A stretch of DNA of 36,726 bases from Nitrospira lenta (GTDB lineage Bacteria > Nitrospirota > Nitrospiria > Nitrospirales > Nitrospiraceae), in the NCBI GenBank assembly GCA_945905765.1, contig CAMDPZ010000020.1, positions 1 to 36,726 on the forward strand, written 5' to 3'. This document shows positions 18,716 through 36,726 of this stretch, piece after piece. The notes beneath the pieces are model-generated. The model did not search any database, was not told the DNA's origin, and saw only the letters and a program-made list of their open reading frames with translations. The stretch's first letter is position 1. Every line of letters starts with the position of its first letter. Both the position numbers and the translations under genes were made by a program.

Positions 18716-18836
18716 AGGCTGTTCAAAAAGGCCGTCCAGCGAGGCCGCAGGCGAGTCGAAACCGGAGGCGTGCCCTCAGGGGTACGTTGAGGATTTCGAT
18801 GAGCCGAGAACGAAGCTGGCGGGTTTTTTAAAGCAG
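18716..18836 (+). repeat. Dispersed palindromic repeat, copy A (upstream of hisH)
   Basis: The core 18734-18820 matches the reverse complement of 35405-35491 at 83 of 87 bases. The centre is a hairpin (CGTGCCC TCAG GGGTACG here, one G-T pair) inside TCGAAACC...GGATTTCGA. The outer ends (AAAAAGGCC and GGGTTTTTT) can pair. It ends about 15 bases before the hisH start codon. Confidence 0.88.
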
Positions 18837-29306: not shown

Positions 29307-29744
29307 GCGCGAGGGAGAGGACCGGGTGATCGCTTGGGGCGGCAACGCTCTTAGAGGAAAGTCCGGACTTCATGGGCAGGGCGCTGGGTAACTCCCAGGC
29401 GGAGCGATCCGACACCAGCACCACAGAGAACAAACCGCCGATGGCCGAGGCGATGGGATGCAAGTCTTGTCGCTGCGGATCAGGTAAGGGTGAAACGGCG
29501 GGGTAAGAGCCCACCGCGGTGGTGGTAACATCACTGGCACGGTAAGCGTCGCCTGATGCAAGGCCAAATAGGAAGACACCTGTCGGCTTTCTTTGGAAAG
29601 TCGGCGACCGGCTGGCCCGGCCGAGGTCTTCGGGTAGGTCGCTTGAGGTTCGAGGTGACTCGAATCCCAGAGAAATGATCACCCCCGTGTGGGACCATAT
29701 CCCATGCGGGACAGAATCCGGCTTATAGGTCTTCTCCATCGCGC
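29307..29744 (+). ncRNA. rnpB: RNase P RNA (class A)
   Basis: The catalytic RNA of RNase P, which matures tRNA 5' ends. Conserved blocks are GAGGAAAGTCCGGAC (29354 on; P4 5' strand and J3/4), GGGTGAAACGGCGGGGTAAG with GAGCCCACCGC in the specificity/central region, and ACAGAATCCGGCTTAT (29711 on; P4 3' strand). The terminal helix P1 is formed by GCGCGA plus GGAGAGGACC (29307-29323) and GGTCTTCTCC plus TCGCGC (29728-29744), directly followed by seven T. P1 therefore also acts as the terminator hairpin. The length of about 438 is at the upper end for class A. The 3' 66 bases lie inside the opposing glutaredoxin-like gene. Confidence 0.95.
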
Positions 29745-30113: not shown

Positions 30114-30256
30114 TATGGATATTTATCCCTGATTTTTCAGAAAGTTCTGAGATATCGAGGGGCTCGTGTCTGGTCTGTTAGACCAAGCCGTTTCGTTGCC
30201 TATTGTATCGATTCCTCCGCCTGATTTTTACGGGCGGGATGGATGGAGGTTCTGTC

Positions 30257-32032
30257 ATGAAGCTCACAGGCGCTGAAATCCTCATCGAATGTCTCAAACG
30301 GGAAGGCGTGAAGACGATTTTCGCGCTTCCTGGCGGTGTCGTGCTGAAGATTTTCGACATGCTGCACCAGCAAAAGGATATTGAAGTGGTCCTGACGCGC
30401 CATGAGCAGGGCGCCGGCCATATGGCGGAAGGTTATGCCAAGGCGACCGGGAAAGCCGGAGTCTGCCTGGTGACCTCAGGGCCAGGCATGACGAACGTGA
30501 TTACGGCGTTGGCCGATGCCTATATGGACTCTGTGCCGCTGGTCTGTTTTACGGGCCAAGTTCCGACCAGTCTGATCGGGAACGATGCGTTCCAAGAGGC
30601 GGATAATATCGGTTTGAGCCGCCCCTGCACCAAGTACAATTTTCTCGTAAAAGACGTGGCCGACTTGGCGACGACGATCAAGGAAGCCTTCTACATTGCG
30701 ACGACGGGGCGTCCCGGTCCTGTGTTGGTGGACATTCCGAAAGACGTTTCCATGGATAAGGCGGAGTTTACCTATCCGAGCTCCGTCTCCATCCGCAGCT
30801 ACAATCCTGTGTATGAAGGTAATAAGTGGCAGATCAAGCAGGCGGCTGAGGCCATGACGAAGGCGAAGAAGCCGGTGCTGTATGTCGGCGGCGGCGTCGT
30901 CTTCTCCGGCGCCTCGCAAGAGTTGATGGAGCTGGCCGAACTGACCCATATGCCGGTCGACATGACCCTGATGGGGCTCGGGGCCTTCCCCGGAGAACAT
31001 CCCCAGTCCATGGGCATGCTGGGCATGCATGGCACCTATTGGGCCAACATGGTCATGCATTACTCCGACCTGGTCGTGGCGATTGGCGCGCGGTTTGACG
31101 ATCGCGTTACCGGCAAGGTCTCCGAGTTTTGCCCCCATGCCAAGGTCATTCATATCGATATCGATCCGACCTCGATCAGGAAGAATGTCAATGTCGACAT
31201 TCCCATCGTCGGCGACTGCAAAACGGTGCTGCGGGAGTTGCTCCAGATTTTGCGCGCCACAGTGAACGGCGATCAGAAGGAATTACGCAAGCCCTGGTGG
31301 AATCAGATCCGCGAATGGCAGCAGGCGAATCCTCTGGCCTATCAGCAGGCAGCGGACGGGCCGATCAAGCCGCAGCATGTCATCAAGCGGCTCTATGAAC
31401 TGACGAAGGATATGGATCCGATCGTCTCGACCGATGTCGGGCAACACCAGATGTGGGCCGCCCAGTACTTTAAGTTGGCCAAGCCCAATCGCTGGTTGAC
31501 CTCGGGCGGGCTCGGAACTATGGGCTTTGGATTTCCCGCCGCCATGGGGGCGCAAGCGGCCTTCCCTGGCCGGCTGGTTCTCTGTATTGCCGGTGACGGC
31601 AGTATCCAGATGAATATGCAGGAAATGGCCACAGCTGTGGTGCATAAGCTTCCGGTCAAGATCATTGTGCTCAATAATCGATTCCACGGGATGGTTCGGC
31701 AATGGCAGGACCTTTTCTACGAAGGACGGTATGCCTCGAGCGATCTGGAAACGACGCCGGACTTTGTGAAGTTGGCCGAGGCCTATGGAGCGGTGGGACT
31801 CAGGGCCAGCAAGCCATCGGAGATCGATGACGTCCTCAAGGAAGCCATTGCGGTGAACCGGCCGGTGATTGTCGATGTGCCGACCTACCGCTACGAAAAC
31901 GTCTATCCGATGATTCCTGCCGGCGGCAGCAATCATGAGATGATTTTGGAAGATCCGCCGCATTTGAAGACGAAGCAGGCTGGATCGGGGCAGGTGACTC
32001 CGAAGGATTCGGACACGATTCTCACGGCCTAA
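30257..32032 (+). CDS. ilvB: Acetolactate synthase, large (catalytic) subunit
   Basis: A 591-residue ThDP enzyme that condenses two pyruvates, or pyruvate with 2-oxobutyrate, as the first common step to valine, leucine and isoleucine. The catalytic Glu50 is in LTRHEQGAGHMAEGYA. The FAD/central domain includes GARFDDRVTGK. The ThDP-Mg motif begins AGDGSIQMNMQE and ends in VLNN. ATG 30257 has GGAGG seven bases upstream; the frame extends to 30203. The C-terminal 25 residues are a polar tail. It is followed by ilvN after 22 to 28 bases. Confidence 0.97.
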   Translation: MKLTGAEILIECLKREGVKTIFALPGGVVLKIFDMLHQQKDIEVVLTRHEQGAGHMAEGYAKATGKAGVCLVTSGPGMTNVITALADAYMDSVPLVCFTGQVPTSLIGNDAFQEADNIGLSRPCTKYNFLVKDVADLATTIKEAFYIATTGRPGPVLVDIPKDVSMDKAEFTYPSSVSIRSYNPVYEGNKWQIKQAAEAMTKAKKPVLYVGGGVVFSGASQELMELAELTHMPVDMTLMGLGAFPGEHPQSMGMLGMHGTYWANMVMHYSDLVVAIGARFDDRVTGKVSEFCPHAKVIHIDIDPTSIRKNVNVDIPIVGDCKTVLRELLQILRATVNGDQKELRKPWWNQIREWQQANPLAYQQAADGPIKPQHVIKRLYELTKDMDPIVSTDVGQHQMWAAQYFKLAKPNRWLTSGGLGTMGFGFPAAMGAQAAFPGRLVLCIAGDGSIQMNMQEMATAVVHKLPVKIIVLNNRFHGMVRQWQDLFYEGRYASSDLETTPDFVKLAEAYGAVGLRASKPSEIDDVLKEAIAVNRPVIVDVPTYRYENVYPMIPAGGSNHEMILEDPPHLKTKQAGSGQVTPKDSDTILTA

Positions 32033-32060
32033 CGTTCTGTGGCAGGAGTACAGATTGGGT

Positions 32061-32579
32061 ATGGAACATATTATTTCGGTGACTGTCGAGAATAAATTCG
32101 GGTCCCTGTCTCGCGTCGCCGGCTTGTTTAGCGGCCGCGGATTCAACATTGAAAGTCTCTCGGTGGCGCCGACGCTGGATCCCTCCATGTCGCAGATGAC
32201 CATCGTCACGTCCGGAGATGACCGGATCATCGAGCAGATCGTGAAGCAGCTCAATAAGCTGATCGATGTCATCAAGGTTGTGGATTTGAACGAGAGCGAT
32301 TTCGTGTCGCGGGAGACGGCGCTCATCAAGGTGCATACGAGGCCGGAAGATCGCGCGGAAGCGTTGCGGATTGCCGATATTTTCCGGGCTAATGTCATCG
32401 ACTCCACGCCGGCGACCTACACCATTGAAGTGACCGGCGATCCCCACAAGATCGAAGCGATCATCAACCTGCTGCAGCCCCTCGGCATCAAAGAGCTCAC
32501 CAGGACCGGACGGGTCGCGGTCGCCCGCGAGTCGATTCGCGCGACGAGCGTGCCGGCGAAAAAGGCTGTCCGCGAATAG
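32061..32579 (+). CDS. ilvN: Acetolactate synthase, small (regulatory) subunit
   Basis: A 172-residue regulatory subunit. The N-terminal ACT domain (HIISVTVENKFGSLSRVAGLF, GRGFNIESLSVAPT) binds valine for feedback inhibition and activates IlvB. The second half (ALIKVHTRPEDRAEALRIAD) is the ACT-like C-terminal domain. A Lys/Arg/Ala tail ends the protein. ATG 32061 gives the usual N-terminus, but TTG 32055 has better spacing (six bases) from AGGAG, so the true start could be two codons earlier. ilvC begins 63 bases later. Confidence 0.95.
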   Translation: MEHIISVTVENKFGSLSRVAGLFSGRGFNIESLSVAPTLDPSMSQMTIVTSGDDRIIEQIVKQLNKLIDVIKVVDLNESDFVSRETALIKVHTRPEDRAEALRIADIFRANVIDSTPATYTIEVTGDPHKIEAIINLLQPLGIKELTRTGRVAVARESIRATSVPAKKAVRE

Positions 32580-32639: not shown

Positions 32640-33656
<1,017 letters not shown>

Positions 33657-33670
33657 GAAACGAGGTCTCT

Positions 33671-34321
33671 GTGGCAGATCGTGCCGTCGGCATCCCGTTT
33701 GCCAAAGAAGGAATTCCCTTCATCGGGGCTGCTGTTGGCGTTACACTGCTAGCAGGATGGTTGGGTGGAATTGTCGCGGCGGTCGGTGGGGCGCTCCTAA
33801 CGCTCTTCGTGGCCTGGTTTTTTCGCAATCCTTCTCGAGTGGTGCCGCAAGAGCCCGGTCTCGTCGTGGCGCCTGGTGACGGGAAAGTCATCGCTATCGA
33901 AGAAGAGTTCGAGCCGCGCTTCATCAAGGATCGCAGCATTCGCGTGACGATATTTTTGAACGTGTTCGATGTGCATATCAATCGGATTCCCTGCGAGGGG
34001 GTCGTCGAAGATGTGCAGTATCAGCCGGGTTTGTTTCTCGTGGCCAGCAGGCCCGATGCGACGTTGCGGAACGAGCAAAATGCCTTGATGATCAGGACGG
34101 CGCAGGGGGCGAAGGTGCTCTGCGTGCAGGTGGCAGGACTGATTGCCAGACGGATCGTCTGCTGGATTTCGCCGGGCGCCCGGGCCGTCTGTGGTGAACG
34201 ATACGGGTTGATTCGATTCGGGTCGCGGATGGATACGTTTCTGCCGGTCGGGACGGCGATCAAAGTCGCAGTCGGCGATCGGGTGAAGGGTGGAGAGACC
34301 ATCTTAGGAGAGCTGCGATGA
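33671..34321 (+). CDS. psd: Phosphatidylserine decarboxylase, short (PSD-A type)
   Basis: A 216-residue pyruvoyl enzyme of the inner membrane that makes phosphatidylethanolamine. A hydrophobic N-terminal segment (about 16-50) anchors it. VVAPGDGKVI and FLNVFDVHINRIP are family blocks. The self-cleavage site is Gly184-Ser185 in IRFGSRMDTF, yielding the pyruvoyl group on the small alpha chain. This is the short form found with pssA in many bacteria. The start is GTG 33671, with GAGG upstream. It overlaps pssA by 4 bases (ATGA). Confidence 0.95.
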   Translation: MADRAVGIPFAKEGIPFIGAAVGVTLLAGWLGGIVAAVGGALLTLFVAWFFRNPSRVVPQEPGLVVAPGDGKVIAIEEEFEPRFIKDRSIRVTIFLNVFDVHINRIPCEGVVEDVQYQPGLFLVASRPDATLRNEQNALMIRTAQGAKVLCVQVAGLIARRIVCWISPGARAVCGERYGLIRFGSRMDTFLPVGTAIKVAVGDRVKGGETILGELR

Positions 34322-35124
34322 AAACCACCGGACTTCGTCAATCGTTCGGGCGAGATGGGAAGCGGCGTAAAGCCGCCATGCATCTCATTCCGAATTTGTT
34401 CACGACAGGGAACCTCTTCTGCGGCGTCTTTTCGATCCTGTCCGTGTTCAATGGGGATTACCTGATCGCAGCGATCGCCATCCTGGTGGCGATGATTTTC
34501 GACGTGCTCGATGGAAAATCGGCGCGATTGACGAATAGCACCAGCCATTTCGGCCTCGAGTACGACTCTTTGTCCGATGTGGTGTCCTTCGGAGTCGCTC
34601 CCGGCCTGTTGATTTATTCCTGGGCGCTGAGCGGACAGGGGACATTCGGTATTGCCGTGATGTTTGCCTATGTCGCGATGGGTGCGGTTCGGTTGGCCCG
34701 GTTTAATTCGACGGCGGCCGTGGCGGATGGTAAGTACTTCACCGGCTTGGCGATTCCTGCTGCAGCAGGGGTCGTGGCCTCGCTCGTGGTGTTCGACCAT
34801 TACAGCATGAAGATTGCGGCGGACGTGAAGCCCCTTCTCGTTCTGGTGATGACGTTGGCCCTGTCGTTCTTGATGGTCAGCACCATTAAGTATCGTAGCT
34901 TTAAAGATATGAAGTTCAGCGGCGGCCGTCATATTACCTATCTCGTGTGGGGAATCTTGGCCGTCATGCTCGTGGCCGCCTGGCCTCAAGTCATGCTATT
35001 TGTCATTTTTGCCGGCTATGCGCTGCTCGGTCCGGCAGAACGGCTCGTCGGGTTTCTGCCCAAGATGGCCGGAAAACGGTCGCCGAGCAAGACCGAGCAG
35101 TCCGTGACAGGATCGAAGTTCTAG
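34318..35124 (+). CDS. pssA: CDP-diacylglycerol-serine O-phosphatidyltransferase
   Basis: A 268-residue integral membrane CDP-alcohol phosphotransferase that makes phosphatidylserine for Psd. The motif DG(x)2AR(x)8G(x)3D(x)3D is complete: Asp65, Gly66, Ala69, Arg70, Gly79, Asp83, Asp87 (within DVLDGKSARL and GLEYDSLSD). Several hydrophobic segments span the rest. The type is the Bacillus-like PssA, not the peripheral E. coli enzyme. It directly precedes the T-box leader, so transcripts from the ilv promoter would run into that element. Confidence 0.96.
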   Translation: MKTTGLRQSFGRDGKRRKAAMHLIPNLFTTGNLFCGVFSILSVFNGDYLIAAIAILVAMIFDVLDGKSARLTNSTSHFGLEYDSLSDVVSFGVAPGLLIYSWALSGQGTFGIAVMFAYVAMGAVRLARFNSTAAVADGKYFTGLAIPAAAGVVASLVVFDHYSMKIAADVKPLLVLVMTLALSFLMVSTIKYRSFKDMKFSGGRHITYLVWGILAVMLVAAWPQVMLFVIFAGYALLGPAERLVGFLPKMAGKRSPSKTEQSVTGSKF

Positions 35125-35125
35125 A

Positions 35126-35385
35126 AGGCTGCGACGAGGAGTAGTAGGCCATTCGCATAGAAATCGAGAGAGCTGGTGGATGGTGCAACCCAGCCTGTGC
35201 GTTGCCGAACTCGCCTCTGAGCCAGAATCCGTGAAACCCGAGTAATGGATTCCGTCTCGCCCCCGTGATAAGGCGGAATGAAGGGTTGTGGGCAGCAATA
35301 CGTTGTTCATGGCTGAATCAGGGTGGTACCACGGAGCTTCTCGAGCCTCCGTCCCTGGGCGTGGGGATGGAGGCTTTTTGTTTTG
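35126..35385 (+). promoter_or_regulatory. T-box riboswitch with leucine (CUC) specifier
   Basis: Stem I closes GGCT (35127-35130) with AGCC (35220-35223). It has the AGTAGTA internal-loop motif, a distal GAGAGAGCTGG-TGGATGGTGCAA-CCCAGC region, and a specifier loop CCGAACTCGCC whose codon CTC (35210-35212) is Leu. A hairpin GAATCC/GGATTC follows (stem II/III region). The T-box proper is AGGGTGGTACCACGG (35320-35334), matching the consensus AGGGTGGNACCGCG. The terminator pairs GCCTCC (35345-35350) with GGAGGC (35369-35374), then TTTTTGTTTTG. Uncharged tRNA-Leu binding would favour antitermination and leuA expression. I see no promoter of its own between pssA and stem I. Confidence 0.9.
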
Positions 35386-35389
35386 CCGG

Positions 35390-35510
35390 CCGCTGAAAGC
35401 GGCTGCCAGCGTCGTTCTCGGCTCATCGAAATCCTCAACGTACCCCTGAGGGTACGCCTCCGGTTTCGAATCGCCTGCGGCCTTGCTGGACAACCGCTTT
35501 GAGCAGCCTC
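35390..35510 (-). repeat. Dispersed palindromic repeat, copy B (between the T-box and leuA)
   Basis: The core 35405-35491 is the reverse complement of 18734-18820 with 4 differences in 87. The central hairpin here is perfect (CGTACCC TCAG GGGTACG). The outer arms (35396-35404 and 35492-35500) form nine pairs of different sequence from copy A but the same pairing. It lies after the T-box terminator and ends about 26 bases before the leuA start codon. Confidence 0.88.
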
Positions 35511-35536
35511 AAAGCGATAGGGAGAAGGGGGAAACC

Positions 35537-36726
35537 ATGACCAGGATGATCAGAATTTTCGATACGACTCTGCGCGATGGCGAGCAATCGCCTGGCGCCA
35601 GCATGAATGTGGAAGAGAAGATCATGGTGGCGAAGCAGCTGGCTCGCCTGGGGGTCGATATCATCGAAGCGGGATTTGCCTACAGTTCGCCTGGAGATTT
35701 TGAAGCGGTGCGGCGGATCGCGCAGGAGGTCGAGGGGCCGACGATTTGCAGTTTGGCGCGGGCAAGGCCGGAGGATATCGATCGGGCCTGGGAGGCCTTG
35801 AAGGGGGCGCCCAAGGTCCGCATCCATACGTTTCTCTCGACGTCGGATATCCATTTGAAGCACCAGTTCAGAATGACGCGCGACGAGGCGAAGAAGCGCG
35901 CGGTCGAGATGGTGCAACGGGCGAGGGGCTACGTGGATGATGTGGAATTCTCGCCTATGGATGCCAGCCGTTCCGATCCCGCCTATCTCTATGAAGTGAT
36001 CGAGGCGGTGATTGCCGCGGGAGCCGGAACGATCAACATCCCGGATACCGTCGGCTATGCGGTGCCGCAGGAGTTCGGCAAGCTCATTCGCGGCATTCGC
36101 GAACAGGTGCCGAATAGTGCGCAGGCGGTGATCTCCGTCCATTGCCACAACGACCTTGGCCTCGCCGTAGGGAACAGTTTGGCGGCGGTGTTCGAAGGGG
36201 CAGGCCAGGTGGAGTGCACGATCAATGGAATCGGCGAGCGGGCGGGGAATACGGCGTTGGAAGAAATCGTCATGGGGCTCAGGACCAGGAAAGATTTCTA
36301 TCAAGCCGATACGAAGATTCATACCGAAGAGATCGCGAAGACCAGCCGATTGGTCAGCAAGATCACCGGCATGGTGGTGCAGCCGAACAAGGCGATTGTC
36401 GGGGCGAACGCCTTTGCCCATACGTCCGGCATCCACCAGGACGGGCTGCTGAAGGACAAGACGACCTATGAAATCATGAAGCCGGAGACGATCGGGCTGG
36501 TCGAGAGCAAGATGGTCATGGGGAAGCTCTCCGGGCGGCATGCGTTTCGTCAGAGGCTGGTGGAGCTGGGCTATACGCTCTCGGACGAGGAGGTCAATCG
36601 CGCGTTCGAGCGGTTCAAGAAGCTGGCCGATCAGAAGAAAGAGATCTACGAAGAGGACCTCGAAGTCATTGTCTCCGAAGAACTGGCCAAAATGGCCGAT
36701 CGGATCACCTTGAAGTCGTTCCATGT
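35537..36726 (+). CDS. leuA: 2-isopropylmalate synthase, N-terminal part (cut by window end)
   Basis: An open frame of 396 codons to the window end with no stop, about three quarters of a typical LeuA (500 or more residues). It condenses acetyl-CoA with 2-oxoisovalerate, the first step to leucine. Seen are [19 protein letters not shown] (metal and substrate-binding Arg-Asp), [15 protein letters not shown] (metal-binding His pair), [16 protein letters not shown] and HTSGIHQDG, in LeuA order. The C-terminal leucine-sensing domain is beyond the window. ATG 35537 follows GGAGAAGGGGG. Homocitrate or citramalate synthase are the alternatives, but the leucine T-box upstream supports LeuA. Confidence 0.95.

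Follow-up and report, generated by a model that had tools for sequence, protein, structure and literature searches.

The window, the whole 36,726-nucleotide stretch of Nitrospira DNA analysed here, ends within leuA, and the question raised by this locus is what the leader between leuA and the preceding gene encodes and which genes it would control. A preliminary description, made from the sequence alone, had proposed a leucine T-box acting on leuA outside the Firmicutes, with Stem I, a CUC specifier, a T-box core and a competing terminator. Annotation of the window revealed the gene order ilvB-ilvN-ilvC-psd-pssA-leuA, on one strand with close spacing, and placed the leader between pssA and leuA. 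The following genes were assigned:

30203..32032 (+), ilvB; TIGR00118, 843 bits (cut-off 538); start mechanically assigned
32055..32579 (+), ilvN; TIGR00119, 201 bits (cut-off 57); start mechanically assigned
32643..33656 (+), ilvC; TIGR00465, 457 bits (cut-off 226)
33671..34321 (+), psd, phosphatidylserine decarboxylase; NF003678, 258.5 bits (cut-off 225)
34318..35124 (+), pssA; TIGR00473, 124.6 bits (cut-off 107)
35537..36726 (+), leuA, 2-isopropylmalate synthase, incomplete because the window stops within it; NCBIfam models NF002086, 681 bits (cut-off 532), and TIGR00973, 634 bits (cut-off 598.7)

An RNase P RNA of bacterial class A was also detected, at window positions 29314-29741 (288 bits).

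Identification and anatomy of the leader

Search of the window with the Rfam T-box covariance model (RF00230), a check that the preliminary description had itself proposed, returned a full-length match at 35122-35359 (+) that covers model positions 1-219 (88.8 bits, E 4.6e-20). Because this score lies below the RF00230 gathering score of 93, a default Rfam scan omits the window T-box, and it was recovered by a rescan with an E-value threshold. The same was seen in the order-wide search described below, in which 92 of the 162 matching genomes fell below the gathering cut-off and 70 lay above it. A survey from 2025 (PMC12452182) considers this cut-off overly strict for T-boxes. Folded on its own, 35126-35385 gave a modestly low minimum energy (z -2.15, with 4 of 200 shuffles equally low or lower), and a scan for terminator-like sites, taken alone, found 1 site where 1.1 were expected in shuffles, which is not above chance. 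Since these single-sequence signals are weak, the case for a T-box rests on the model match and on conserved pairing. The elements of the leader are as follows:

35126..35380 (+), leucine T-box leader from Stem I to the terminator; RF00230 match plus the terminator at 35343-35380
35127..35223 (+), Stem I; named pairs counted over 61 leaders
35167..35191 (+), AGAGAG and GGUGGAUGGUGCAACCC of the distal Stem I module; RF00230 has conserved AGAGA and GGUG at the aligned positions
35210..35212 (+), specifier CUC (Leu); context GAA-CUC-G-CC at 35207-35215
35225..35252 (+), Stem II with GAA...AGUA internal loop; GAAUCC/GGAUUC pairing across 61 leaders
35263..35268 (+), CCGUGA, candidate part of the Stem IIA/B pseudoknot; aligned to CCGUUA of the Rfam consensus
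35284..35314 (+), predicted Stem III hairpin; local minimum-energy fold of the window alone, 13 pairs
35320..35356 (+), T-box bulge and antiterminator, AGGG/CCCU and ACGGAG/CUCCGU; UGGU at 35324-35327
35343..35384 (+), intrinsic terminator with T tract, overlapping the antiterminator; stem 35344-35375, inverted repeat I3

Stem I, the CUC specifier, the T-box core and the competing terminator were all found where the preliminary description had placed them. Stem I is built of a basal helix GGCU/AGCC, the helices GAGG/CCUC, GGC/GCC and CGCAUAG/CUGUGCG, and an apical helix GCUGG/CCAGC; the specifier loop lies between GAGG/CCUC and GGC/GCC. The distal module corresponds to the tRNA-elbow contact of characterised T-boxes. 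The T-box core AGGGTGGTACCACGG begins at 35320. Folded alone, the antiterminator reaches -12.6 kcal/mol and the terminator -26.6 kcal/mol, and the two are mutually exclusive because the strand GCCTCCGTCCC is common to both.

A palindromic element of about 120 bases (35388-35508, fold z -3.5) lies between the terminator and leuA. Its inner motif GAAATCCTCAACGTACC occurs in 47 genome copies with at most 2 mismatches, one of them at window position 18781, against 0 for the reversed control, and the element looks like a MITE- or REP-like repeat. It could influence readthrough into leuA.

Specifier and cognate tRNA

A leucine specifier was read in 147 of 147 leader loci, as CUC in 144 and as CUG in 3, these being counts of loci and not of species, with some leaders fetched twice under different identifiers. 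Pattern search returned CTC for 139 loci, CTG for 4 and no specifier for 4. The printed sequences show CUC in one of the four CTG loci (L047) and in three of the unmatched ones (L061, L186 and L194); the last unmatched locus, L195, has CUC in L296, which covers the identical place. Pattern search thus accounts for 142 loci and the printed sequence for the other 5. The CUG found in L005, L006 and L028 is a synonymous leucine difference. The same genome encodes a tRNA-Leu(GAG) with discriminator A and an encoded CCA, so that the gene ends in ACCA, which is complementary to the UGGU bulge.

Conservation of pairing

The leader set of 147 sequences, 132 of them from the window's own family (f1), was thinned at 88% identity to 84, including 71 own-family leaders. 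The alignment comprises 61 of these 71, the window included; left out were L002, whose core is altered, and nine divergent leaders (L157, L161, L181, L182 and L186-L190). Five of the aligned rows (L112, L117, L128, L129 and L133) appear misaligned or cut in basal Stem I.

Across the 61 leaders, the pairs named for Stems I and II form in 92.5% of cells, compared to 28.4-48.7% when the partner was slid by 1-3 columns. Changes on both sides were found in 18 of the 29 Stem I/II pairs, a number reached by 3 of 500 shuffles, although the shuffles, here and in the tests that follow, ignore relatedness. The Stem I/II covariation score of 0.381 was reached by 0 of 500 shuffles. In Stem II, the GAAUCC/GGAUUC helix was paired in 99.2% of cells, and 5 of its 6 pairs had changed on both sides. 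Three pairs failed in many leaders: the basal Stem I pair at columns 52/187 (28 of 59 leaders) and, in the middle helices, those at columns 69/173 (23 of 61) and 77/168 (24 of 58). In the terminator, 97.7% of cells were paired in the 61 leaders and 3 of 12 pairs had changed on both sides, which 19 of 500 shuffles reached. All 10 antiterminator pairs were present in 61 of 61 leaders (100% of cells), with one cell changed on both sides; because its sequence hardly varies, the antiterminator says little on covariation. Covariation in the aligned leaders supports both predicted stems, I and II, and lends the terminator weaker support.

Four of the features by which a T-box is assigned to its class were found together in the window leader, namely the model match, a leucine specifier, a UGGN bulge and a mutually exclusive antiterminator and terminator. 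Judged from these sequence features, the leader is very probably a class I (transcriptional) tRNA-Leu(GAG) T-box that attenuates leuA.

Position within the operon

Among the 87 distinct loci obtained from the T-box searches, leuA lies within 1300 bases of the core in 84, and the other 3 end 46-277 bases past the core. A further 41 distinct core loci came from the LeuA search, where leuA is present by construction, giving a total of 128. By tblastn, 123 of the 128 loci have a PssA match ahead of the core. Three of the 5 loci with no match have just 173-473 bases before the core. The other two, L293 (f9) and L187 (f1), had no PssA match in 1655 and 622 bases, respectively, so pssA is not always upstream. 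One upstream gene each from families f6, f9, f14, f15 and f18, and from the T-box-less family f3, scored above the TIGR00473 cut-off for pssA. Geobacter may share the order psd-pssA-leuA.

Individual loci departed from this arrangement. In L018 and L107, which come from one organism (CG24C), the T-box is separated from leuA by a further reading frame and an assembly gap. In L009 (G047:C132, a member of the own family) a T-box stands before a gene that by eye is ileS-like; the locus does not match the core pattern and is outside the core-locus count, and its contig may be a contaminant.

In the window, the pssA stop codon is followed after 2 bases by the first pair of Stem I, and a scan for promoter-like sites in 34700-35560 found none, where chance expects 0.3. 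Because the T-box stands directly behind pssA and no promoter-like site was found, we read it in the window's family as an internal attenuator. The window T-box is probably a leucine valve internal to the ilvB-ilvN-ilvC-psd-pssA-leuA operon.

In the proposed mechanism, RNA polymerase arriving from upstream of the leader would transcribe the T-box. When leucine is scarce, the CUC specifier of Stem I would bind the anticodon of uncharged tRNA-Leu(GAG), and the UGGU bulge the tRNA 3' ACCA, so that the antiterminator would be held and leuA would be transcribed. When leucine is ample, charged tRNA would be unable to engage the bulge and the much stronger terminator would form. Termination would fall just behind pssA, and for this reason the ilv and lipid genes would escape leucine control.

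Alternative explanations

The most serious alternative accepts the T-box but gives it a promoter of its own in the 3' part of pssA, which would make leuA a separate unit with no internal valve. Relatives in other families provide the argument for it. In a comparative scan of the region upstream of Stem I (threshold at least 9 of 12), promoter-like sites were found in 6 of 6 f9 leaders (shuffles 4 of 30), 4 of 5 f15 leaders (0 of 25), 1 of 3 f14 leaders (4 of 15), 2 of 2 f18 leaders (1 skipped; 2 of 10) and 0 of 1 f6 leader (1 skipped). Given these shuffle rates, only f9 and f15 clearly stand out. The f9 sites score 11 of 12 and are near-consensus, e.g., TTGACA/CATAAT, and because the T-boxes of f9 and f15 have such near-consensus sites immediately before them, independent promoters are likely in these relatives. 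The own family does not follow them: 2 of 128 leaders (4 skipped) had a site, no more than the shuffles (20 of 640), and this second scan again found none in the window, both scans being restricted to sigma-70-type sites and having no positive control in f1. The empty interval at 34700-35560 and the 2 bases between the pssA stop and the first Stem I pair also speak against a separate promoter, which we consider possible for the window and rather unlikely.

It is very improbable that the leader is a decayed, non-functional T-box remnant retained by hitch-hiking. Two altered copies were seen, one with the core UGGUGCC in place of UGGUACC on a related contig of the same assembly (C115, L002) and one in genome G058 (L270) that has no Stem I and a changed antiterminator foot. 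The C115 leader, however, is 98% identical to that of G015, whose core is intact, the window copy keeps every residue that never varies in the 61-leader alignment, and pair changes on both sides have accumulated across the family. Still less credible, to the point of being nearly negligible, is a ribosome-dependent leader-peptide attenuator in place of a tRNA-binding RNA. Attenuators of leuA with leucine codons exist in other bacteria, and the leader does hold several short frames, with up to 5 leucines in 43 codons. None of these frames has a run of more than 2 leucine codons, however, and the T-box signature sequences stand at their RF00230 positions.

Distribution in the phylum

The preliminary description spoke of a Nitrospira copy. 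The T-box is indeed there, but it is not a lone one: in the fully listed sample (E 0.001) it was found in 55 of 61 genomes of the window's own family, and five other families of the phylum hold it as well. In the same sample and at the same threshold, T-boxes were found in 0 of 39 genomes of three sister families of the order. The order-wide search matched 162 of 235 genomes, and the matching rows were all f1. The genomes with no match were 13 listed f1 genomes and 60 of other families, 7 of the latter being listed as f2 and 53 being placed by listing order, their kinship presumed from it. In the phylum sample, 94 of 295 genomes matched, 79 of them f1 and 15 from the five other families (f6, 2; f9, 2; f14, 3; f15, 5; f18, 3).

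A LeuA search of the 13 unmatched f1 genomes found a leuA start in G058 and G039, both of which have a T-box core upstream. The G039 leader is cut by a contig end, and the defective leader of G058 reflects decay or misassembly. G003, G208 and G024 yielded only a piece of leuA, and G100, G016, G180 and G034 only distant LeuA paralogues (31-32%); the LeuA search found nothing in G124, G132, G190 and G193. Because a leuA start was found only in the two genomes that have a core, no unmatched f1 genome is a proven case of T-box absence.

The best 80 named LeuA relatives (77-98% identity) are MAGs labelled as Nitrospira or other Nitrospirota, with one labelled Nitrospinota, which bears out the proposed non-Firmicute host for a leucine T-box with a CUC specifier and leuA as its target. 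Of these 80 loci, 63 have a T-box core. The other 17 (L162-L172 and L174-L179) show 77-80% identity, apart from L175, whose sequence starts within leuA.

The same MAG holds a second contig with the order psd-pssA-T-box-leuA, the L002 contig named above (G000:C115:1363-1599). A duplication was considered for it and set aside, because the psd-pssA-leuA surroundings are the same and the leader is nearest to that of the species G015, with 98% identity compared to 88% to the window copy. Since its leader is so close to that of another species, the contig probably represents strain admixture in the MAG.

With these results, the known range of leucine T-boxes comes to include Nitrospira and several families related to it. 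The pssA-leuA junction, with a T-box in one family and none in sister families, offers a clean contrast; because the same junction occurs with and without a T-box, gain or loss at one locus becomes testable.

Shortened relatives in other families

In family f9, a T-box with a CUC specifier was found before leuA in 6 of 7 genomes (L290-L295). Stem I of these leaders is 49-59 bases long in all six and consists of the basal helices, the specifier loop and a short hairpin. This hairpin is of the GGUC/GACC type, has 4-7 pairs and a 3-10-base loop, and closes the specifier loop; the AGAGA/GGUG module is absent from all six leaders. In 2 of the 6, alignment to the Rfam model shows Stem II and the antiterminator; in an alignment of all six, the Stem II and antiterminator stretches and the terminator with its T run are conserved. 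In family f15, a T-box was found in 5 of 6 genomes. The model match in G237 (L297) replaces 40 positions of Stem II and Stem IIA/B by 2 bases. The leader of G262 (L296) has the same short sequence, here read from the sequence and not from a model alignment.

Ultrashort ileS leaders are known among the class II T-boxes of Actinobacteria. For transcriptional T-boxes, the f9 set runs contrary to the usual pattern, because TBDB (PMC7778990) gives them a longer Stem I than translational ones. The same paper mentions a truncated Stem I among class I matches. As far as sequence comparison can tell, Nitrospirota may well hold naturally trimmed leuA T-boxes, with f9 leaders working without the elbow module and two f15 leaders without Stem II and Stem IIA/B. 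If this is true, neither the distal tRNA-elbow module nor Stem II and IIA/B would be indispensable for a transcriptional leucine T-box, and the full-length copy of the window, in its ilv-psd-pssA-leuA operon, would be the complete reference form. The shortened relatives would serve as natural deletions for asking which T-box parts tRNA reading needs.

Evolutionary history

A LeuA tree was built with 70 rows, 20 of them labelled with a T-box, from the 70 of 74 genomes with a LeuA match. G237, G262, G269 and G410, with a partial LeuA match, were left out, and the tree has no Geobacter or Firmicutes outgroup. Six families account for the 20 T-box rows. Placing the T-box on this tree took 7 changes (gains or losses), of which starred branches force no fewer than 6, and 0 of 500 shuffles were as low. 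LeuA inheritance has not been purely vertical, because f6, a family of the same class, clusters with members of other classes. For the leuA T-boxes, an ancient presence followed by losses and a repeated acquisition are both possible. A single early origin would require many losses, and six gains before one gene, all with an identical specifier, seem odd as well.

Comparison with known T-box systems

T-boxes before leuA are in print for Geobacter sulfurreducens, Geobacter metallireducens and Pelobacter carbinolicus (PMC2494555, PMC2700814), and the Geobacter leuA T-box is predicted to respond to tRNA-Leu with a GAG anticodon (PMC2700814). Because tRNA-Leu(GAG) T-boxes of leuA have been published for Geobacter, the kind of element is already known. 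A 24-lineage survey from 2013 (PMC3766115) restricts T-boxes to Firmicutes, Actinobacteria, Chloroflexi and Thermus/Deinococcus, and adds Geobacter on the basis of earlier studies. A literature search, with most subscription journals outside its reach, found no report of a T-box in Nitrospirota; automatically Rfam-annotated genome records may list some of these T-boxes already. The leuA T-box is a known kind, Nitrospirota is a phylum with no report found, and the shortened relatives are unusual.

As far as the Geobacter and Pelobacter accounts describe them, those systems resemble the window in having a single T-box upstream of leuA outside the Firmicutes. They differ in phylum, and the Nitrospirota copies are family-wide, with shortened forms elsewhere in the phylum. 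In Bacillus subtilis, a single T-box serves the whole ilvBNC-leuABCD operon, according to PMC12452182. Both this element and that of the window are leucine T-boxes on branched-chain amino acid genes, but the B. subtilis T-box governs the whole operon, whereas the T-box of the window is placed behind pssA and before leuA only. The class II (translational) T-boxes of Actinobacteria (PMC7778990) share a short Stem I with the f9 relatives. Unlike them, the f9 leaders keep an intrinsic terminator and precede leuA, and the window copy has a full Stem I.
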